DNA from: Acidimicrobiales bacterium | GTDB lineage: Bacteria; Actinomycetota; Acidimicrobiia; Acidimicrobiales; GCA-2861595 | Length of the DNA stretch: 56,457 bases | Assembly: GCA_036262515.1 (NCBI GenBank) | Contig: DATAIT010000072.1 | Span: 1-56,457, forward strand | Reading direction: 5' to 3' | Shown here: positions 2-28,908 of the stretch, one piece after another | Layout: each line of letters starts with the position of its first letter | Position numbering within the stretch: the first letter of the stretch is position 1 | Notes under the pieces: model-generated | Databases searched by the model: none | The model's input: only the letters and a program-made list of their open reading frames with translations | What the model was told of the DNA's origin: nothing | Translations under genes and position numbers: made by a program

Positions 2-2425
2 CAGGCGCCGGCCGCCTCCGTGTCGGCGCCCGGCCCCGGTGCTCCCCCGGCCACGCCGTCCGGCGTGGGCGAGCCGCCGAGCGCCGGTCCCGGCGAACCG
101 CAGCCGGCGCCACCCGCAGCCGGCCCCTCCGGCCAACCGGGCCAGCCGGCCCCGCCCACCTCCCGCTCCGGCAAGCCCATCCCGCCCCCGCCCGGGCGCC
201 CGCCCACGTCGCGCTCCGGCAAGCCCATCCCCCCGCCTCCCGGCATGGGTGGCCGGGCCGCTCCGGCCGGTCCCGCCCGCACGGGCGGCATGGGTGGTCC
301 CCGCCCGTCCGGCCCCGGCGGGCCTCCCCGCACGGGCGCGCCCCGCACGGGTGGCTTCCCGCCCCGCACGGGCGGACCCGGCGGCTCGCCCGGCGGCGGC
401 TTCGGTGCCCGTCCCGGCGGCGGCGGTGGTCCCGGTGGTGGTCCCGGTGGCGGCTTCGGCGGCCGCCCCGGCGGTGGTCCCGGCGGCGGCTTCGGCGGCC
501 GCCCCGGCGGTCCCGGTGGTCGTGGCCGCCCGCCCCGCCGGAAGGGCGGGAGGCGCCGGCGCCCGCTCGAGGAGCTGGAGCCGTTCGACCCGAGCAAGGG
601 CTACGCCCCGTCGAGCCAGCCCGTGCCCACCGGCGAGATCATCGTCGAGCGGGGATCCACCGCCCAGGACCTGGGCCCCAAGCTCAACCGGTCGGCCGGC
701 GACATCGTCCGGTTCCTCTTCCTCCAGGGCGACATGACCACGGCCACCTCGCCGCTGTCCGACGAGGCCATCGAGCTGTTCGCCGACGAGGTCGGTGCCA
801 GCATCCGGCTCGTCGAGCCGGGCGAGGAGAAGGAAGCTGCCCTCCAGCGCAAGTACTTCGACGACGACGAGGAGGAGGAGGACGAAAGCCTGCTCCGCCC
901 CCGTCCGCCCATCATCACGGTCATGGGCCACGTCGACCACGGCAAGACCAAGCTGCTCGACCGCATCCGTGAGACCAACGTGGTCGAGGGCGAGGCCGGC
1001 GGCATCACCCAGCACATCGGGGCGTACCAGGTCGAGAAGGACGGGCGCCTGCTCACCTTCATCGACACGCCCGGCCACGAGGCCTTCACCGCCATGCGGG
1101 CGCGGGGTGCCAACGTCACCGACATCGTCATCCTGGTGGTGGCGGCCGACGACGGCGTGATGCCCCAGACGGTCGAGGCGCTCAACCACGCCAAGGCGGC
1201 CGACGTCCCCATCGTGGTGGCGGTCAACAAGATCGACCGCGAGGAGGCCGATCCCACCCGCGTCATGCAGCAGCTGTCCGAGCTCGGCCTCACGCCCGAG
1301 CAGTGGGGTGGCGACACGATCATGGTCGAGCTGTCGGCCCTGCAGAACCTGGGCGTCGACGACCTGCTCGAGCAGCTCCTGCTGGTCGCCGAGGTGCAGC
1401 TCCCGGAGCAGCTGGTGGCCAACCCCGAGGCCAAGGCCAGGGGCGCCGTACTCGAGGCCAACCTCGACCCCGGGCGCGGTCCGGTGGCCACGGTGATGGT
1501 CGAGACGGGCACCTTGCGGGTGGGCGACGCCATCGTCGCCGGCGCCGCATGGGGCCGGGTGCGGGCGATGCTCGACGACAAGGGCGACAAGATCAAGGAG
1601 GCGCCGCCCTCCACGCCGGTACAGGTGCTCGGGTTCTCCGACGTGCCCAGTGCGGGCGACGACTTCCGCGTCACCGCCACCGACAAGGTGGCCCGCGACA
1701 TCGCCGAGCAGCGCGAGCAGCGCTTCCGCTCGGCCGACCTGCGCAAGACGCCGTCCATGGCAGGTACCACGGCCAAGCTCGAGGACATCTTCGAGCAGAT
1801 CCAGCGGGGCGAGACGGCCACACTGAACCTGATCCTCAAGGCCGACGTCCAGGGCTCGCTGGAGGCCGTCACCGAGAGCCTGCGCAAGCGCGAGCGCGAC
1901 GAGGTGAAGCTGAGCTTCGTCCACCGGGCGGTGGGCGGGATCACCGAGAACGACATCCAGCTGGCGGCCGCCTCCAGCGCCACCATCATCGGCTTCAACG
2001 TGCGGCCCGACCGCAAGGCCCGGGCGCTGGCCGAGGCCGAGGACGTCGACGTCCGCACCTACGAGATCATCTACAAGCTGATCGAGGACATCGAAGCGGC
2101 CATGATCGGCATGCTGAAGCCCGAGTACGAGGAGGTCGTCACCGGCGACGCCGAGGTGCGCGAGGTGTACAGCGTGCCGCGGGTCGGCAAGGTGGCCGGC
2201 TGCTACGTCCTCAACGGCGTCATCACCCGGGGCTCCAAGGTCCGCTTCCTCCGTGAGGGCACCGTGATCTGGAACGGCACGGTCACGTCGCTCAAGCGGT
2301 TCAAAGACGACGTGCGCGAGGTGCAGACCGGCTTCGAGTGCGGCATCGGCCTGTCGGACTTCCAGGACCTGCGGTCGGGCGACGTCATCGAGACGTACGA
2401 GGAGCGCGAGATCCCACGCACGTAG
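2..2425 (+). CDS. infB: Translation initiation factor IF-2 (5'-truncated by window edge)
   Basis: GTPase that delivers initiator tRNA to the 30S subunit. The frame is open to the window edge, so the GTG at 20 is probably not the true start; actinobacterial IF-2 is usually longer and the missing part should lie upstream. Counting from that GTG, residues 1-180 are Pro/Gly/Arg-rich low complexity with repeated FGGRPGGG units. An IF2_N-like domain follows (about 195-275), then the G domain with GHVDHGKT at 303-310, DTPGHE, NKID and a SAL G5 motif, then the beta-barrel and C-terminal fMet-tRNA binding domains ending in EIPRT. The residue after GKT is Lys rather than Thr/Ser. It heads a ribosome-biogenesis cluster with the DUF503 gene, rbfA and truB. 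Confidence 0.95.
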
Positions 2426-21281: not shown

Positions 21282-22238
21282 TCAGGCGACCGTGACCTCG
21301 ATGATCTCGCCCGTGTGCCGCTTGCCGTCGCCTCCCTCCTCGTCGTCCTCGTGCGCGCACCCGATCAGGTAGTCCCCGGGCTCGAGATCGGTTGTCACGA
21401 CGATGGACTTGCCCGACACGACGTCGAACGTCGTGGCGGCGAGGATCCCCGGGGCGGTGTCGGCGTATCCCTTGGGAGGCGCCGTGTCGCTCTCGAACAG
21501 GTTGCTGAAGAACCCGTCGATGTCGTCGTAGGTGGTCGTCTTGCTGGCCTTCTTGGCCACGAACAGCTCGTGCGGCCCCTTCCCCGACGACGTCATGCGG
21601 ATCTTGTTCTCACCGGCCTTGAGCGTCTTCGGGCCGTCGATCGACCCGTCGTCGATGGTGTACTCGGCGTCGGCCTGGACCTCTGTGGCCTCCACCGCAC
21701 CGGGGGCGACGTCGAACGTGCCGAGCATGCCCTTGGCCAGGTGGGGGATCGAGGTGGCTTCGCCCGCCGTCGGGATGAAGCACATCACCGCGTAGGACCC
21801 GGCGACGAGGAAGTCCGTAGTCAGCTCCTCGGACTGCCCCGGGCTGAGGATGGAGCCGGGGGAGTCGAGGCGGCGGGCGACCACCGCATCGAAGGCGGCG
21901 TCGTCCCCGGACTGCAGGGCCGTCTGCACGTCGGTCAACGTCTTTCCCTCCTTGAGGAGCGCGAACGCGGCCATGTGCACCTCCGTGCCGGAGTTCTTGA
22001 TGGTCACGGTGCTGGTGCCCGCCTGCAGGTCACCGGCGATCCCGTACTTGTACTCCGTCATGTCGATGGCGACGGCGTTCACCTCGGCGTCCTCTTCGCC
22101 GCTGCCGCTCTCCGGGACGGTCGTGGTGGTGCGGCTCGACGCCGCGTCCTCGTCGTCGTCGCTGCAAGCGCTGAGACCGACCCCGAGGAGCAGGACGGCC
22201 AGCATGAGAACGGCGCGACGGTTCCGGACGTGGGGCAT
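21282..22238 (-). CDS. Secreted lipoprotein with two cupredoxin-like domains
   Basis: A 318-residue protein with a lipoprotein signal: a basic MPHVRNRR start, a hydrophobic core and the lipobox GLSAC, so it should be acylated at Cys25. A Thr/acidic linker follows. Two beta-rich halves each end in a cupredoxin-like strand pair: GSYAVMCFIPT...HLAKGMLGTFDV (near 150-175) and GDYLIGCAHEDDEEGG...HTGEIIEVTV at the C-terminus. The Cys/His spacing hints at a type-1 copper site, but ligands are not complete in both. The start has AAGGAGG 4 nt upstream, and a TAGATT hexamer (minus strand) further upstream may be its promoter. Confidence 0.75.
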   Translation of the reverse strand: MPHVRNRRAVLMLAVLLLGVGLSACSDDDEDAASSRTTTTVPESGSGEEDAEVNAVAIDMTEYKYGIAGDLQAGTSTVTIKNSGTEVHMAAFALLKEGKTLTDVQTALQSGDDAAFDAVVARRLDSPGSILSPGQSEELTTDFLVAGSYAVMCFIPTAGEATSIPHLAKGMLGTFDVAPGAVEATEVQADAEYTIDDGSIDGPKTLKAGENKIRMTSSGKGPHELFVAKKASKTTTYDDIDGFFSNLFESDTAPPKGYADTAPGILAATTFDVVSGKSIVVTTDLEPGDYLIGCAHEDDEEGGDGKRHTGEIIEVTVA

Positions 22239-22325
22239 CTGGCCTCCTTGAGGGGGTAAGGGGAATCTATCCAGGCCCGGCGGGTGGCGAACCCGCTTGG
22301 ATGTCTGCGCAGCGAGCGCCGTGGC

Positions 22326-23342
22326 TCACCGCCCGTCTTCGGCTCGTCGGCGCGCCCGTCGTGCCCGCCCTCCCCATGCCACCAGGCCGGTTAGGACGGC
22401 GGCGAAGAGGGCCAGGCCCGCCGGGCTGCCACCCTCGCCGGCGCCGTGGGCCGAGGTCCGGCGCGCCGCCGATCCTGAGGGCGCCGCCCCCCCGCCGCCG
22501 GCCGGCGCCGGCGCATCGGCCCGGTCCGATCCCGGCGGCGCGGTGGTGTCCGACGTCGACGGAGCCGCAGTGACGGGAGCGGCGGGGCCGGTGGTCGTCG
22601 CAACCGCCCCCTGCCGGGTCGTGGCCGTCGTCGCCGAGGAGGCGACCGACGTCGCCGTGGCCGGCGCTCCGGCAGCCGTCGTGGCGACGGCAGGTGGCGC
22701 GGGCGCCGGTGCGGTGGTCTCCGGCGCCGCCGCGGACTCGCCGCACACCTGCTCCACCGTCCGGAACGGAGGCGCACCGCCCAGCGCCCACCGCCAGCCC
22801 TCGACGTCCCCGTCGTAAACGGTGGTGCTCGACGCGCCGACCGGCGATACCCGGAGGCTCGTGGCGCCGGCGGGCGCCCGGCTGTAGCTCCAGAATCGGC
22901 CTTCGGGGTTGCAGGTCAGGCAGGAGTCGCCGGCCGGGCACCCGACGCCGCACAGGGCGCACACGGCGGCACCCTTGCCCGAGAACGCTTGGACCACCGG
23001 GTCCACCTGGGCTCGGGCGAGGGCGTCGATCCCGCTGAGCGACTCCTCCTGGAACCGGACGCAGACCGACTTCACCTCCGTCCCGGTGTCGATGATGACG
23101 GCGGCCCGGTGCTGGGCGACTCCCGCCGTCGCCGCAGCCGCAGGGGCCGGGGCGCCGGGCGGGGGGCCGCTCCAGGCGACGACGAGCCACACCGCGACCG
23201 CCGCGGCCAGCCGCCGCCTGGCAGCCGGGCCCGTCAGAGTCGGGAACGCCCAGCGGCGGGGCCGAGAGCGAGCGGTGTCGCGCTGGTCTTCGTGCCGGCG
23301 CCCGGCGGCGCCATCAGCAGGAACCCGGCTGCGCTCGGACAT
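22326..23342 (-). CDS. Surface-anchored protein with DUF4430-like (transcobalamin beta-type) domain
   Basis: A 338-residue exported protein. It has a basic N-terminus and signal-like helix (about 45-75), then a compact domain (about 78-205), a Thr/Ala/Pro-rich stalk (about 205-300) and a C-terminal TM helix followed by RRARRRAEDGR. It therefore looks anchored with the domain outside. The domain reads AAVIIDTGTEVKSVCVRF, a six-cysteine cluster (CALCGVGCPAGDSCLTC), FWSYSRAP and DGDVEGWRWALG. The W-Y and DGD-WxW features resemble DUF4430, the C-terminal domain of animal cobalamin carriers, and SCO2322-like actinobacterial proteins. It lies 19 bp after the barrel gene, so it is probably under the same riboswitch. 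The domain call is from pattern only. Confidence 0.68.
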   Translation of the reverse strand: MSERSRVPADGAAGRRHEDQRDTARSRPRRWAFPTLTGPAARRRLAAAVAVWLVVAWSGPPPGAPAPAAAATAGVAQHRAAVIIDTGTEVKSVCVRFQEESLSGIDALARAQVDPVVQAFSGKGAAVCALCGVGCPAGDSCLTCNPEGRFWSYSRAPAGATSLRVSPVGASSTTVYDGDVEGWRWALGGAPPFRTVEQVCGESAAAPETTAPAPAPPAVATTAAGAPATATSVASSATTATTRQGAVATTTGPAAPVTAAPSTSDTTAPPGSDRADAPAPAGGGGAAPSGSAARRTSAHGAGEGGSPAGLALFAAVLTGLVAWGGRARRARRRAEDGR

Positions 23343-23361
23343 GGCGACGGACCCGGACGGG

Positions 23362-24999
23362 CTAGCCGGAGATCCCGACGATGGGCGCGTTGAGCGGCAG
23401 CCGCTCGGACGGGGCCGACGAGCCGGCGCCCTGGGAGACTGCTCGCCCCTCGGCGTCGGCGTAGACGTAGCCGTCGGCCCGCCGGCCGGCCCGGATGCCC
23501 ACGACGCTCGTGAGGGCGCCGGTCGGGGCGGACGACCCGAGGAAGCGGGCGTCGCCGAAGGCGAACACTCCGCCGTCGGCGGCGACGAGCCAGTAGCCGC
23601 GGCCGGAGGGTGTCGGACCGATCCCCGTCACCGGCTTGTTCAACGTCAGGGCGCCGGTGGACCCGAGGTAGCGGGCGTCGCCGAAGGCGAACACGCCCCC
23701 GTCGCGCGCCACCAGCCAGTACCCCCCGCCGGACGGCGTGGCCGCCATCCCGACGATGGGTTGATTCAGCGGGAGGCCGCCGGTGGACCCGGCGAAGTGG
23801 GCGTCGCCGAACGCGAACACGCCGCCGTCCGACGCCACCAGCCAGTACCCCTGGCCCCCTGGCGTCGTGGCCATCCAGACCATCGGACGGTTGACCCGCA
23901 CGCCGCCCATCGAGCCGAAGTACGGGGCGCGCACGGCGAACACGCCGCCGTCGGCCGCCACCAGGCGGTAGCCGTCGTCCGGGCAGTAGGCCGGGCGCCT
24001 CGACACGGGGAGCCAGCGACGGCCCGCGGCCTGAACGGCCTGCGACGTGGCGAAGGTGTTGACGCCGAAGGCGTCGTTGGGACCGGCCACGTGGCCGTCG
24101 GCGGCCTGGCGGGCGGCGAGAACGCCGCCCGCACCCGGCCAGCACGTGTCCACCTTCTCGCCCACCGCGGTCAGCCCGAGGACGGCCACGGCGGTGGCGT
24201 TGGGATCCTCGGCGTCGAAGGCCGGCCACCCTCCGGTCGCCAGCTGGTTGGAGGCGAGGAAGGCCACGGCCCGGCGCACGGCGCTGGTGTGGGGGTCGAC
24301 TCCGGCGGCCGCGAGGGCTTGCAGCGCCAGCCCGGTCGTGTCGACATCGATCTCGCCGCCCGTCGCATCTCCCGAGAAGCTCCATCCGCCGTTGGCCTGC
24401 TGGGCGGCGAGGATCAGGCTCTGGGTGGCGGGTGGCACCGAGCGGCCGATCAGGGGATGGGCGATGGCGGCGTAGAGGGTGGCGTTGAGGGTGCCGGGCG
24501 GTCCGAACGACCCGTTGACGTTGCGGCCGGCATCCATCCTGGCGACGAGGTCGGTCGCCGCGTCGCCCTGCGGATCGAAGGTGGCGGGCGGGAGGCCGAG
24601 CGGCGCGGCGACGAGGACGATGAGCTTGGCCGCCTGCCCGGCCGAGGTGGTGGTCTCGGCGAGGTCGTCGACGTAGTCGAGCGGGGAGCGGCCGTCGTGG
24701 ACGGCGGCGGCGACGGCGGCACGGCCCGAGGCCGTGTTCCATGACGACGTGGCCTGGGCCGCCTCGGCGAGGGCCAGGACGGCGTCGGGGGTCTCGAAGC
24801 CGGGGAAGCCGGCGGTCTCGAACCCGCCGTCGGGTTGCTGGTTCGCCCGCAGGAAGGCGGCCGCCCGGGCGAGATCGAGAGACGCCGTCGCCGCCCCGGC
24901 GGGCCGGATGGCGGGCACCGGGAGCGAGGCGGGCGCGAAGAGGGCGAGCGCGAGCGCGCCGAGGACGATGCCGATGACGGCGGAAGGACGGCGGGACAT
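23362..24999 (-). CDS. Secreted alpha/alpha-barrel (prenyltransferase/squalene-cyclase-like) protein with C-terminal beta repeats
   Basis: A 545-residue exported protein. A signal peptide covers residues 1 to about 36 (AGAA cleavage region). Residues 40-330 are helical-hairpin repeats with QW-like turns (QQPDGGF, QQANGGWSF, NQLATGGWPAF), the fold of squalene cyclases and of the cobalamin-binding barrel of intrinsic factor/transcobalamin. The cyclase DxDD acid motif is degraded to DVDTTGLALQAL, so catalysis is unlikely and ligand binding plausible. Residues 340-545 form about five 42-residue repeats. The ATG at 24999 has GGAGG upstream and replaces a longer frame that would run through the riboswitch. 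It is preceded by a cobalamin riboswitch and divergent from an ECF transporter operon. Confidence 0.82.
   Translation of the reverse strand: MSRRPSAVIGIVLGALALALFAPASLPVPAIRPAGAATASLDLARAAAFLRANQQPDGGFETAGFPGFETPDAVLALAEAAQATSSWNTASGRAAVAAAVHDGRSPLDYVDDLAETTTSAGQAAKLIVLVAAPLGLPPATFDPQGDAATDLVARMDAGRNVNGSFGPPGTLNATLYAAIAHPLIGRSVPPATQSLILAAQQANGGWSFSGDATGGEIDVDTTGLALQALAAAGVDPHTSAVRRAVAFLASNQLATGGWPAFDAEDPNATAVAVLGLTAVGEKVDTCWPGAGGVLAARQAADGHVAGPNDAFGVNTFATSQAVQAAGRRWLPVSRRPAYCPDDGYRLVAADGGVFAVRAPYFGSMGGVRVNRPMVWMATTPGGQGYWLVASDGGVFAFGDAHFAGSTGGLPLNQPIVGMAATPSGGGYWLVARDGGVFAFGDARYLGSTGALTLNKPVTGIGPTPSGRGYWLVAADGGVFAFGDARFLGSSAPTGALTSVVGIRAGRRADGYVYADAEGRAVSQGAGSSAPSERLPLNAPIVGISG
23365..23980 (-). 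repeat. Five ~42-residue 'GYWLVAxDGGVFAFGDA' repeats
   Basis: Coding repeats in the 3' part of the barrel gene. The three central units are closest (GYWLVA-DGGVFAFGDA-, G-S-, PTPSG). The first (GYRLVAADGGVFAV) and last units diverge. Such units are frequent in secreted actinobacterial proteins and probably form a beta-propeller-like or beta-solenoid surface module. Confidence 0.8.
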
Positions 25000-25069
25000 G
25001 GGTGTTGCCTCCGTTGAGCCCCGTTCCACGAGGGCCTGGCCGATGCACGGACGCCGTTGGATCCGGCGT

Positions 25070-25205
25070 GCAGGGGCGGGCATCCTGGCTCCCGGCCCGG
25101 GGACCGGTCACAGTTGCGGGTCAGCGTCGGTCTCTCACCGACTTCCCCCGTCCCCCTCCGAGGAGGGGGACCACCACCGGCATCCGGACCGGCGGCGACC
25201 TCTGC
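25070..25205 (-). ncRNA. Cobalamin (B12) riboswitch
   Basis: Read on the minus strand, the leader contains the hallmark core CCCGCAACTGTGA (25120-25108). It is preceded by GGGGGAAGTCGGTGAGAG and ACCGACGCTGA, the GGAA-x-GGTG-x-GAC-CGC pattern of AdoCbl aptamers. The B12 box GAGCCAGGATGCCCGCC follows at 25091-25075. An 8-bp GC-rich hairpin (TCCCCCTC/GAGGGGGA) occupies the P3 position. The box ends 75 nt before the ATG of the barrel gene. The intervening leader can form a TGCAC-GCCG/CGGC-GTGCA hairpin that may belong to the expression platform; the on/off mechanism is not resolved. Exact ends are approximate. Confidence 0.88.
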
Positions 25206-25213
25206 CGGGCCGC

Positions 25214-25242
25214 ACACTAGGCGCCGGCCCGGAGCCCGTCCA
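25214..25242 (-). promoter_or_regulatory. Promoter of the riboswitch-barrel-DUF4430 transcript
   Basis: Minus-strand TGGACG (25242-25237) and TAGTGT (25219-25214) are separated by 17 bp. Transcription would start near 25207, just before the aptamer. Confidence 0.5.
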
Positions 25243-25318
25243 TACGAACCGGCGCCGGCTTCCGGGGCCGTCCCGACCGGCGGTGACCCGGAAATGGCGA
25301 GGTGTGCGAACGTGCAGC

Positions 25319-26407
25319 GTGCGCCGCACGACCGAGCCGACCGTGCACGCCGTGGCGTGGCTGGTGTGGGCGCTGTCGGCGGCGGCCTGCGTCGAGCTGG
25401 CCCCCAGCCCCGTCTACGTCGCCGTCGTCATCGCGGTGGCGTTCGTCGTCGTGTCCGCCCACGGGGTGGAGACACCGCTGGCGCGCGCCTTCCCGTTGCT
25501 CCTCGCCGTGGGGGTCGTCTTCGCCGTCGTCCGGGTGCTGCTCACTGCGGCCACGGCGCACGGGATGGGCCAGGCGTGGTTCACGACGCCCCACGTCACG
25601 TTGCCCCGGCTGCTCGGGGGATTCCAGGTGGGCGGCGCCGTCGAGCCGGCCGTGGTGTTCCAGGCGGCGGCCGAGAGCTTCGCCGTCGTCGGCGTCATGG
25701 CCGTGTTCGGGGCGTTCAACGCGGTCGTGTCCCATCACGAGCTCGTCCAGGCGGCGCCCCGCGCCTTCTACGAGACCGGGCTGATCCTCACGGTGGCCGT
25801 GGCCTTCGTGCCGGCCACCGTCGCCACGGTGGCGAGGGTCCGGGAGGCGGACCGGGCCCGCACGGGTGGCCACGTCGTGCGGCGCGGCCGCCTCGTCCGC
25901 CTCGCCGTGCCCATCCTCGAGAGCGCGCTGGAGCGGGCCCTGCTGCTGGCCGAGTCGATGGACGCCCGGGGCTTCGCCGGCGCGCCGCCGTCTGCCGCCG
26001 ACCGGGCGGCGGCGTGGTGCGCGCTGGGCGGCCTGGCGGGGATCGGTGGCGCCTTCGTGGCGTTGGTGGCCAGGTCCCGGGTCCCGGCGGCGGTGCTGGC
26101 GTCGCTCGGCATGGCGGGGGTGACGGCGGCCGTCGTGGTGTCCTCCCGTCAGGTCCGCAGGGTCTCGTACCGCCCGCGGCGGATGACCCGACGGGACTGG
26201 GCGCTGGCGGGTGCATCGCTCGCCGCGCCGGCCGGCCTCGCCGTCCTGGCGCTGGCCGGCGACACCACCCTCACGTGGACCGCCAGCCCGCTGCGCGCTC
26301 CGGGCTTCGGCGCCCTGGCCGCACTGGCGCTGCTGGCCCTCACCGGGCCTGTGTGGCGGCTGCCGCGCGAGGGGGCGGCTGCGGGCGCCGATGTGGCCGC
26401 AGCATGA
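25319..26407 (+). CDS. ECF transporter transmembrane component EcfT (CbiQ-like)
   Basis: Membrane coupling subunit of an energy-coupling-factor importer. The 362-residue protein has several hydrophobic helices in the first 180 residues. The signature coupling helix ALERALLLAESMDARGF near residue 205-220 contains the Ala-Arg-Gly motif that docks on the ATPases. Two further hydrophobic pairs follow. The start is uncertain: GTG codons at 25283, 25304 and 25319 are in frame and none has a clearly spaced ribosome binding site; I chose the one closest to the first TM helix. The stop overlaps the ATPase gene (ATGA). Confidence 0.85.
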   Translation: MRRTTEPTVHAVAWLVWALSAAACVELAPSPVYVAVVIAVAFVVVSAHGVETPLARAFPLLLAVGVVFAVVRVLLTAATAHGMGQAWFTTPHVTLPRLLGGFQVGGAVEPAVVFQAAAESFAVVGVMAVFGAFNAVVSHHELVQAAPRAFYETGLILTVAVAFVPATVATVARVREADRARTGGHVVRRGRLVRLAVPILESALERALLLAESMDARGFAGAPPSAADRAAAWCALGGLAGIGGAFVALVARSRVPAAVLASLGMAGVTAAVVVSSRQVRRVSYRPRRMTRRDWALAGASLAAPAGLAVLALAGDTTLTWTASPLRAPGFGALAALALLALTGPVWRLPREGAAAGADVAAA

Positions 26408-28029
26408 GCACGGCGCAACCGGCGATCGACTACCGCGGCGTCGGGTTCGCCTACCCAGGCGGCGAGCCGGTGCTGAGCGGCGTCGACCTGGCCGTGACCG
26501 CCGGCGAGGTGCTCCTGGTCGCCGGCCCGTCCGGTTCCGGCAAGAGCACCCTGCTGCGCTGCGCCAACGGGCTCGTGCCCCACGCCAGCGGGGGTCGCTT
26601 CCGCGGCGAGGTCGTGGCCCTCGGCCGGTCCACCCGGTCACATCCGCCCCGCAAGCTGGCCGACGTCGTCGGGTTCGTGCACCAGGACCCCGAGGCCCAC
26701 TTCGTCGTCGATCGGGTGGAGGGCGACATCGCCTTCGTGCTCGAGAACCTGTCGATGGACCCCGTGGCGATGCGCCGGCGCGTCGAGGAGGTGCTCGACG
26801 CTCTCGCCATCGCCCACCTCCGGGACCGGTCGCCGGGCACGCTCTCCGGGGGTGAGCAACAGCGTGTGGCCATCGCCGGCGCCCTGGCCGCGGGCCCGTC
26901 GGCCCTCGTGCTCGACGAGCCGACCTCCCAGCTGGACCCGCAGGGGGCGGAGGACGTGCTGGCCGCGCTGGCCCGCCTCAATGCCGATCTGGGCACCACG
27001 GTGGTCATTGCCGAGCACCGGCTCGAGCGAGCCGCCCCGCTGGCGGACCGGGCTCTGCTCCTGGCACCGGCCGGCGACGGCCACCCCGGGCGTGCCGCCG
27101 CCCGTCTCGGTCCCGTGGGCGGCGTCCTGGCCGGGTACGCCGGGGCGCCCGCCGTCACGCGGCTCGGGCGGCTGCTGGGATGGGACCCGCCGCCCCTGAC
27201 GGTGCGCGACGCACGGAGGCTCGCCGCGTCGTCGGCGCCGCTGCGTGCGCTCACGGCGGGAAGCGCCCTCGGCGGTGCGGTTGGGCCGGCACACCGGGCG
27301 CCGGCGCCCGGTGCGGTGCTGCTCGCCGCCCGGGGCGTCCGGGCGTCGCTCGGCGGGCGCCAGGTGCTGCACGGCGTCGACGTCGACGTGCACGCCGGCG
27401 AGGTCGTCGCCCTGCTCGGGCGCAACGGCTCGGGGAAGACCACGCTGCTGCGAACCCTGGCCGGTCTGCTCCGTCCCGATGCGGGCGCCGTCCGCTGCGC
27501 CGGCCGCGCCGCCTACGTGCCGCAGGACCCGAACTCGCTCCTCCTCGGCCCGACGGTCCGCGCCGATGTCGCCGCCACGCCCCGGCTGCTGAAGCGGCCC
27601 GCCGACTCGGTCGACCACTGGCTGGACGCCCTCGGTCTCACGGCACTCGCCAAGCGCCATCCCCGCCAGCTGTCGGCGGGGGAGCGCCAGCGGGTGGCCG
27701 TCGCCGCGGTGGCGGCCGGCTGCCCCGACGTCCTCCTCCTGGACGAGCCGACGCGCGGGATGGACGCCCCCTCCCGTGCCGCCCTCGAGCGGGCATTGGC
27801 GGCGGTGGCGGACTCGGGCGCGGCGGCCGTCCTGGCCACCCACGACGTCGAGCTGGCGGCCCGGTGCGCCACGCGCGTCGTTGTGCTCGGCGACGGTGAC
27901 GTCGTGGCCGACGGACCGAGCCGTTCGGTGCTCGCCGGATCGTTGTTCGCGCCCCAGGTGCTGCGGGTGGCGGCCCCGTTCGTGACCGTCGAGGAGGTCG
28001 CCGCCGCCCTCCGGACCCTCCAGCGGTGA
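26404..28029 (+). CDS. ECF transporter ATPase, two ABC domains fused (EcfA-EcfA')
   Basis: Energises the importer. The 541-residue protein contains two complete nucleotide-binding domains. Domain 1 has GPSGSGKST (41-49), a Q-loop in FVHQDPEAHF, LSGGEQQR near 147 and LVLDEPTSQLD. Domain 2 has GRNGSGKTT (339-347), VPQDPNSLLL, LSAGERQR near 424, LLLDEPTRGMD and an ATHDVE H-loop. The fused arrangement replaces the usual separate A1 and A2 genes. Both flanking overlaps are 4 nt (ATGA, GTGA), so all three transporter genes should be translated together. Confidence 0.93.
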   Translation: MSTAQPAIDYRGVGFAYPGGEPVLSGVDLAVTAGEVLLVAGPSGSGKSTLLRCANGLVPHASGGRFRGEVVALGRSTRSHPPRKLADVVGFVHQDPEAHFVVDRVEGDIAFVLENLSMDPVAMRRRVEEVLDALAIAHLRDRSPGTLSGGEQQRVAIAGALAAGPSALVLDEPTSQLDPQGAEDVLAALARLNADLGTTVVIAEHRLERAAPLADRALLLAPAGDGHPGRAAARLGPVGGVLAGYAGAPAVTRLGRLLGWDPPPLTVRDARRLAASSAPLRALTAGSALGGAVGPAHRAPAPGAVLLAARGVRASLGGRQVLHGVDVDVHAGEVVALLGRNGSGKTTLLRTLAGLLRPDAGAVRCAGRAAYVPQDPNSLLLGPTVRADVAATPRLLKRPADSVDHWLDALGLTALAKRHPRQLSAGERQRVAVAAVAAGCPDVLLLDEPTRGMDAPSRAALERALAAVADSGAAAVLATHDVELAARCATRVVVLGDGDVVADGPSRSVLAGSLFAPQVLRVAAPFVTVEEVAAALRTLQR

Positions 28030-28886
28030 AGGATCGCCCCCGGCGCGAACGCGGCCGGCTGGTCGCCGTCTACGGCCTCGTCGTTCTGGTCGGCGCAGGC
28101 GCCTTCCTGTACCCCTTCTGGCTCCCGCGAGACGCCATCCCCGCCAACGCCCACGCCGGCGACGCGCCGCTGGTGGCGGCCGTGATCGGCGTGCTGGTCG
28201 TGGTCGCAGTCACCCTGGAGCTGCGGCGCGGCACGATGAACGGCGCCGCTGTCGCCGTGCTCGGTGTCCTCAGCGCAACGGCCGGGCTGCTCCGGCTGGT
28301 GGACCTGCCGGGCGGCGGGAGCGGGATCTTCTTCCTCGTGGTACTCGCCGGCGCCGCTCTCGGGCCTCGCTTCGGGATGCTGCTCGGACTGTGCGCCATG
28401 GCGACGTCGGCCCTCATCACCGGGGGGATCGGCCCGTGGCTTCCGTTCCAGATGCTCGCACTCGGGTGGATGGGGGGCAGCGCCGGCCTGGCCGGCCGTG
28501 CGACCCGCCACCTGCCGCCGCGTGCCGAGGTGGCCGTGCTCGGGGCGTTCGGCTGGGCCTGGGGTTTCGCCTTCGGCGCCATCATGAACCTGTGGTTCTG
28601 GCCCTTCGCGGTCGGCGACGGGCCGCTGTCATGGGAGCCGGGTCTGTCGTTCGGGGCCACCCTGTCGAGGTACTGGACCTTCTACGTGGCGACCTCGCTG
28701 GCCTGGGACGCGGCTGCCTCTGCGACGAACGCCGTGGTCATCGTCGTGGCGGGCCGGCAGCTGCTGGCGTCGCTCCGGCGGGTGGCGGGCCGGCTCGATC
28801 CGATCGTCGAGCTGCTCGACGACGGGCCACTCGAGGCCGGACGCGCCGGAGGCGCCCTCTCCATCGAGGGCGCCTCCGCAGGCTGA
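28026..28886 (+). CDS. ECF transporter substrate-binding S component, CblT-like
   Basis: Substrate-specific membrane subunit. The 286-residue protein has six or so hydrophobic helices, with AGAALGPRFGMLLGLCAMATSALITGG and GPWLPFQMLALGWMGG, typical of S components grouped with CblT (predicted corrinoid or dimethylbenzimidazole transport). Near the end is a cytoplasmic tail after RQLLASLRRV. The GTG at 28026 overlaps the ATPase stop. A perfect hairpin lies in its last codons. Specificity is inferred from the neighbouring B12 riboswitch; the sequence alone does not fix the ligand. Confidence 0.82.
   Translation: MKDRPRRERGRLVAVYGLVVLVGAGAFLYPFWLPRDAIPANAHAGDAPLVAAVIGVLVVVAVTLELRRGTMNGAAVAVLGVLSATAGLLRLVDLPGGGSGIFFLVVLAGAALGPRFGMLLGLCAMATSALITGGIGPWLPFQMLALGWMGGSAGLAGRATRHLPPRAEVAVLGAFGWAWGFAFGAIMNLWFWPFAVGDGPLSWEPGLSFGATLSRYWTFYVATSLAWDAAASATNAVVIVVAGRQLLASLRRVAGRLDPIVELLDDGPLEAGRAGGALSIEGASAG
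28848..28877 (+). terminator. Perfect 12-bp hairpin at the end of the ECF operon
   Basis: GGAGGCGCCCTC (28848-28859), loop TCCATC, GAGGGCGCCTCC (28866-28877), inside the last codons of the S-component gene, 9 nt before the end of its stop codon. No T-run follows. It resembles the hairpin after recA (14-bp stem, 6-nt loop). Confidence 0.5.
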
Positions 28887-28908
28887 CGTCGAGGTCCGGT
28901 ATGCGACT

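Follow-up and report, generated by a model that had tools for sequence, protein, structure and literature searches.

The window, that is, the whole stretch of 56,457 nucleotides analyzed here, holds two divergent gene sets and a cobalamin riboswitch. The minus-strand genes encode two surface proteins (here called the capture genes, after their proposed role) and the plus-strand genes encode an ECF transporter. The features of the locus are as follows.

22326 to 23342, minus strand: gene for a membrane-anchored protein with a transcobalamin-type beta-grasp domain (AlphaFold, Foldseek, VIA, hydropathy)
23362 to 24999, minus strand: gene for a secreted alpha/alpha barrel protein (toroid families above the Pfam cut-off; hydrophobic N-terminus)
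25008 to 25012, minus strand: GGAGG ribosome binding site of the barrel gene (sequence; recurs in relatives)
25058 to 25190, minus strand: cobalamin riboswitch aptamer (RF00174; cmscan 63.1 bits, E = 2.7e-13)
25214 to 25242, minus strand: predicted promoter TGGACG-17-TAGTGT of the capture genes (read directly)
25319 to 26407, plus strand: ECF T component, CbiQ-like (PF02361 at E = 7e-4, under the cut-off; multi-span; conserved place)
26404 to 28029, plus strand: ECF ATPase with two fused CbiO-like domains (ABC_tran twice; TIGR01166 above the cut-off)
28026 to 28886, plus strand: ECF S component, likely B12-specific (PF12822, 33.9 bits versus a cut-off of 30.7)

The aptamer at 25190-25058 matches RF00174 over model positions 1-189, that is, at full length, and scores twice the gathering score of 31.5 bits. 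Both the aptamer and the B12 box GCCAGGATGCC (25089-25079, minus strand) read toward the barrel gene, as the earlier note had proposed, and the 3' limit of the aptamer lies 12 bases beyond position 25070 given there. The Rfam covariance-model search of both strands returned this full-length minus-strand match and, with permissive filters, nothing cobalamin-like on the plus strand of 22300-28900; permissive settings likewise yielded no second cobalamin match near the aptamer in that region. It is also the one RF00174 match in the whole genome (3.4 Mb, 97.8% complete). Weak Rfam matches, e.g. CRISPR-DR29 at ~27280-27319, fell below threshold and were taken as chance. We noted that a block like AGCGGTCGCGC lies just 5' of the Rfam match, at 25191-25210 in the window and also in the relatives L040, L042, L045, and L055; judging from this sequence, the functional RNA may start 15-20 nt ahead of the match.

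The same note had read a promoter on the minus strand, and its hexamers are indeed present: TGGACG (25242-25237) and TAGTGT (25219-25214), separated by a 17-bp spacer. The pattern T(T/G)GAC-16..18-TANNNT occurs twice in the 56 kb window, both strands counted, and TANNNT, in some cases with TTGACA, is found at similar sites 5' of the aptamer in several relatives. A generic sigma-70 scan did not call this promoter, and a generic promoter and terminator scan of the locus found neither element. The best start of the barrel gene is the ATG at 24999, behind GGAGG at 25012-25008 and 59 nt past the aptamer; an in-frame ATG at 25083 is an unlikely start since it sits within the B12 box. Sites of the GGAGG type are found in almost all acidimicrobial relatives, where the aptamer mostly ends 43-134 nt before such a site and T-runs are absent between the two. 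This spacing without T-runs favors translational control, hence regulation of the capture genes probably acts at translation. Folding of the leader RNA was no better than that of shuffled sequences (z = -0.88) and its energy was uninformative, so we claim no specific expression platform.

On the plus strand, the T component, the ATPase, and the S component are all present and in order. No riboswitch or other Rfam element facing these genes exceeded threshold within 22300-28900, in agreement with the earlier claim that the oppositely oriented ECF genes have no riboswitch of their own. S components diverge widely in sequence; that of the window had no sequence match in the PDB to any solved S component, CbrT included.

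The barrel protein consists of a signal peptide, a toroid (~24903-23965), and a C-terminal repeat tail. Sequence matches of its family are to terpene cyclases, prenyltransferase toroids, and TED domains, with toroid families found in 25 of the 26 members. The profile matches squalene-hopene cyclases in the PDB, and the matches of the barrel to terpene cyclases are better than those to transcobalamin. The toroid of a fused protein from a Chloroflexota relative (L034) gave Z up to 17.7 against terpene cyclases, and 15.1 and 14.7 against the alpha domains of haptocorrin and transcobalamin, respectively, in a low-confidence model (mean pLDDT 65 in the first half of the barrel) that was used for the toroid fold only. 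We considered and rejected a working terpene cyclase as the identity of the barrel, toroids being a shared fold and the B12 context being strong. The tail (23362-23964) carries repeats of the form GYWLVAxDGGVFAFGDAxFxGS without a confident Pfam family, common only to some relatives (L040 and L042); from their sequence, the repeats are perhaps a wall-binding module.

The beta gene begins 19 bp past the barrel stop. Its product is a membrane-anchored protein, in which the beta domain (23132-22740) is followed by a Pro/Thr/Ala-rich linker and a C-terminal membrane helix (~22433-22368, by hydropathy); linker and helix likewise follow the beta domain in L034. The Pfam search with this protein returned no match, the beta domain had no sequence match among PDB chains, and DUF4430 matched none of the 37 beta-domain members. 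Since the Pfam and PDB sequence searches gave nothing useful, structure prediction was needed. With an AlphaFold model of the 125-residue beta core (pLDDT 91.2), the leading 14 Foldseek matches were all transcobalamin, and VIA-align placed the core next to haptocorrin (Z = 12.2), transcobalamin (11.9), and intrinsic factor (11.8), the next unrelated fold being at Z = 6.5. Taken together, the barrel and the beta domain resemble a transcobalamin divided into halves, each on its own gene. We noted two further proteins. PDB 3u7z, a structural-genomics "putative metal-binding protein" from Ruminococcus gnavus (RUMGNA_00854), has the beta-domain fold (Z = 12.1) and, judging from this structural likeness, may be a B12 binder. 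A predicted lipoprotein (LSACSDDD; 21282-22238, minus strand) of no known family is encoded 87 bp past the beta gene on the same strand.

To place the locus among its relatives, we searched with the 125-residue beta core, which was found in 50 of the 247 genomes sampled from the class; with a profile the number was 58, and more were found elsewhere in the phylum and in Chloroflexota. From these, 39 loci, chosen by the beta domain alone, were mapped. A cobalamin riboswitch above the gathering score lies directly upstream of, and on the same strand as, the capture genes in 32 of the 39. Four of the seven others are truncated, with a contig end no more than 400 bases away, and in L061, L067, and L069 the upstream sequence is present with no riboswitch above threshold. 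ECF genes adjoin in 29 of the 32 riboswitch loci and were not seen in three; they are divergent from the riboswitch in 23 of these 29, and in six (L034, L035, L039, L058, L070, and L071) they follow co-directionally behind the same riboswitch. Three further loci of this kind, also co-directional, were found among a comparison set of 20 riboswitch loci of class members, mainly from genomes without the beta domain in the first search. L039, the closest sampled relative by beta domain, is itself co-directional, which shows that a divergent layout is dispensable. The beta domain and barrel are fused into one protein in L034, L036, and L037, fusion being the arrangement of the Chloroflexota relatives, and barrel, beta domain, and ECF genes are kept together across Acidimicrobiia and Chloroflexota. 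In L062 (4765-4833, minus strand), the riboswitch heads a lone barrel, and another set comprising beta, barrel, and ECF genes is oriented the opposite way, which suggests duplication or division of labor. A second barrel gene lies 3' of the beta gene in L040 (9678-11579) and L042 (8897-9919), and the 7-10 Mb genomes of genus g146 gave weak, possibly spurious matches restricted to profile positions ~72-118, in the C-terminal half of the beta domain.

Next, we considered the B12 need of the host. The genome encodes MetH and a methylmalonyl-CoA mutase B12 domain, both above cut-offs, and hence, on this gene content, needs B12; it also has two B12-binding radical-SAM-like proteins. A search of the 129-contig, 97.8%-complete assembly, in which the controls were found, detected no CbiC (corrin ring), CobS (lower loop), or FecCD (BtuC-type permease). 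Among the importer types searched, which do not include BacA, this leaves the ECF system as the best candidate for bringing in B12. In sister Acidimicrobiia, the riboswitch leads a BtuF-type binding protein (PF01497) in 10 of the 10 other loci scanned (L076-L092). FecCD (E < 1e-30) occurs in 10 of the 58 genomes with the beta domain versus 119 of the 189 without it (odds ratio 0.12, Fisher p = 6e-10, uncorrected for shared ancestry and with FecCD permeases also serving siderophores). By both observations, the capture proteins occupy the place that BtuF holds in sister lineages. As an aside, two unrelated B12 uptake systems use one RNA switch within Acidimicrobiia.

In our judgment, the locus is very probably a capture module of two transcobalamin-like chains, repressed by B12, that serves an ECF importer of B12. 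We infer B12 binding, hand-over to the pump, and the sign and level of control as follows. At low intracellular adenosylcobalamin, the ribosome binding site of the barrel gene would stay accessible in the leader RNA, allowing the cell to make two surface proteins, the secreted alpha/alpha barrel and the membrane-tethered beta-grasp domain. These would sandwich B12 between them, like the two domains of transcobalamin, and the bound vitamin would be handed to the ECF transporter encoded on the opposite strand. With ample B12, folding of the aptamer would turn off the capture proteins, probably at translation. Repression by adenosylcobalamin is established for the cobalamin riboswitch class, and for that reason we take it to apply here. 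The pump genes, having no riboswitch, would not be shut by the aptamer, which would make capture the regulated step. There is about an even chance that a fuller version also holds, in which the two-chain transcobalamin closes around B12 at the surface and docks on the ECF pump, only the capture half is under riboswitch control, and the system replaces BtuFCD in Acidimicrobiia. The earlier note had the riboswitch controlling "secreted proteins rather than the transporter". The riboswitch and promoter do face the genes of the secreted proteins and not the ECF genes, a layout seen in 23 of the 29 relative loci with both riboswitch and ECF genes, but the contrast to transport is misleading, since the fold, gene pairing, fusions, and context make the secreted proteins likely to be the extracellular B12-binding part of the ECF importer. 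Nor is the riboswitch unusual, as had been thought, in failing to lead an uptake gene: a B12-uptake gene is directly led, as usual, and it is the pump genes that lie on the other strand.

The riboswitch region might control the divergent ECF genes as well, via a promoter region common to both sets or a protein responsive to B12, for example, in which case pump and capture would be co-regulated. The gene sets start ~130 bp apart around the 5' end of the aptamer, and all genes lie behind one riboswitch in six relatives; yet the Rfam search showed neither a riboswitch nor any other element above threshold directed at the ECF genes, the divergent order is kept in 23 relatives, and we regard co-regulation as unlikely, albeit conceivable. 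Co-regulation would affect how the module is controlled but not what the module is, and the ECF genes may also be under a separate B12-responsive regulator.

A further possibility is a different cargo, i.e. another corrinoid or precursor (cobinamide, pseudocobalamin) or cobalt, with B12 serving as a regulatory signal only. The names CbiQ and CbiO stem from cobalt transport, ECF-CbrT carries cobinamide too (PMC5997447), and other ligands were raised by the reviewers of Burroughs et al., 2007 (PMC1796856). Nevertheless, in a genome where no corrin-synthesis or lower-loop marker was detected, neither cobalt nor cobinamide by itself would meet the needs of MetH and the mutase, and the fold of the beta domain is found in carriers of complete cobalamin, which together make such a cargo improbable. 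It is more improbable still, to the point that we give it little weight, that the barrel works as a secreted terpene-cyclase-type enzyme, the beta protein an unrelated surface protein, and the process under riboswitch control something other than transport. The sequence of the barrel resembles terpene cyclases, its repeat tail is unlike transcobalamin, and the riboswitch faces away from the ECF genes. Against this, barrel, beta domain, and ECF genes occur together in Acidimicrobiia and Chloroflexota, with the ECF genes behind the riboswitch in some; the barrel protein has a signal peptide; and the beta domain has the B12-carrier fold.

A B12-capture module of an ECF importer has counterparts among known systems. 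ECF importers are usually described as catching their vitamin via the S component, and the locus suggests that they can have extracellular capture proteins. Like the system proposed for the window, ECF-CbrT of Lactobacillus mediates ECF B12 import in a B12-needing bacterium (PMC5997447), but the window has a dedicated ECF set with capture proteins, and an S component without a sequence match to a solved one. An annotation in L. rhamnosus reads "additional lipoprotein component of putative cobalamin ECF transporter" (PMC9963975). BtuFCD with its B12 riboswitch, found in the sister genomes, is likewise a riboswitch-led extracytoplasmic B12 binder with an ABC-type pump, but its proteins are unrelated to those of the window, and binder and pump share one operon. 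BtuG of Bacteroides is likewise a surface B12-capture protein associated with corrinoid riboswitches and with transport genes; it is, however, an outer-membrane lipoprotein that works with BtuB and has been reported only in Bacteroidetes (PMC6143338). Animal transcobalamin, haptocorrin, and intrinsic factor have a similar beta domain (Z = 11-12) and likewise a toroid partner. By contrast, the animal carriers are one chain with the toroid first, and the proteins of the window are two chains, of which one is tethered to the membrane and the other, the barrel, bears a repeat tail.

The closest precedent is the prediction by Burroughs et al., 2007 (PMC1796856) of B12 scavenging by bacterial transcobalamin-like SLBB proteins that come with alpha/alpha toroids and share operons with CbiO and CbiQ. 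Animal B12 carriers were proposed to descend from such bacterial proteins, and riboswitches go unmentioned (PMC1796856). We found no experimental test of bacterial transcobalamin-like proteins in the literature searched, and no open-access paper on this type of locus in Acidimicrobiia. The window shares with the SLBB proteins (PMC1796856; Pfam DUF4430 and kin) a transcobalamin-fold beta-grasp domain and toroid, secretion or surface anchoring, adjoining CbiO and CbiQ, and hosts without B12 synthesis. It differs in having the beta domain and toroid on separate genes, no DUF4430 match, a leading riboswitch, and a divergent ECF set. New relative to the 2007 prediction are therefore the two genes, their position outside the DUF4430 model, the riboswitch in front of them, and the divergent pump. 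The riboswitch before the capture genes in dozens of genomes, together with that before BtuF in sister genomes, provides independent evidence for a corrinoid ligand, and the locus offers a compact two-gene system for testing bacterial transcobalamin-like proteins.
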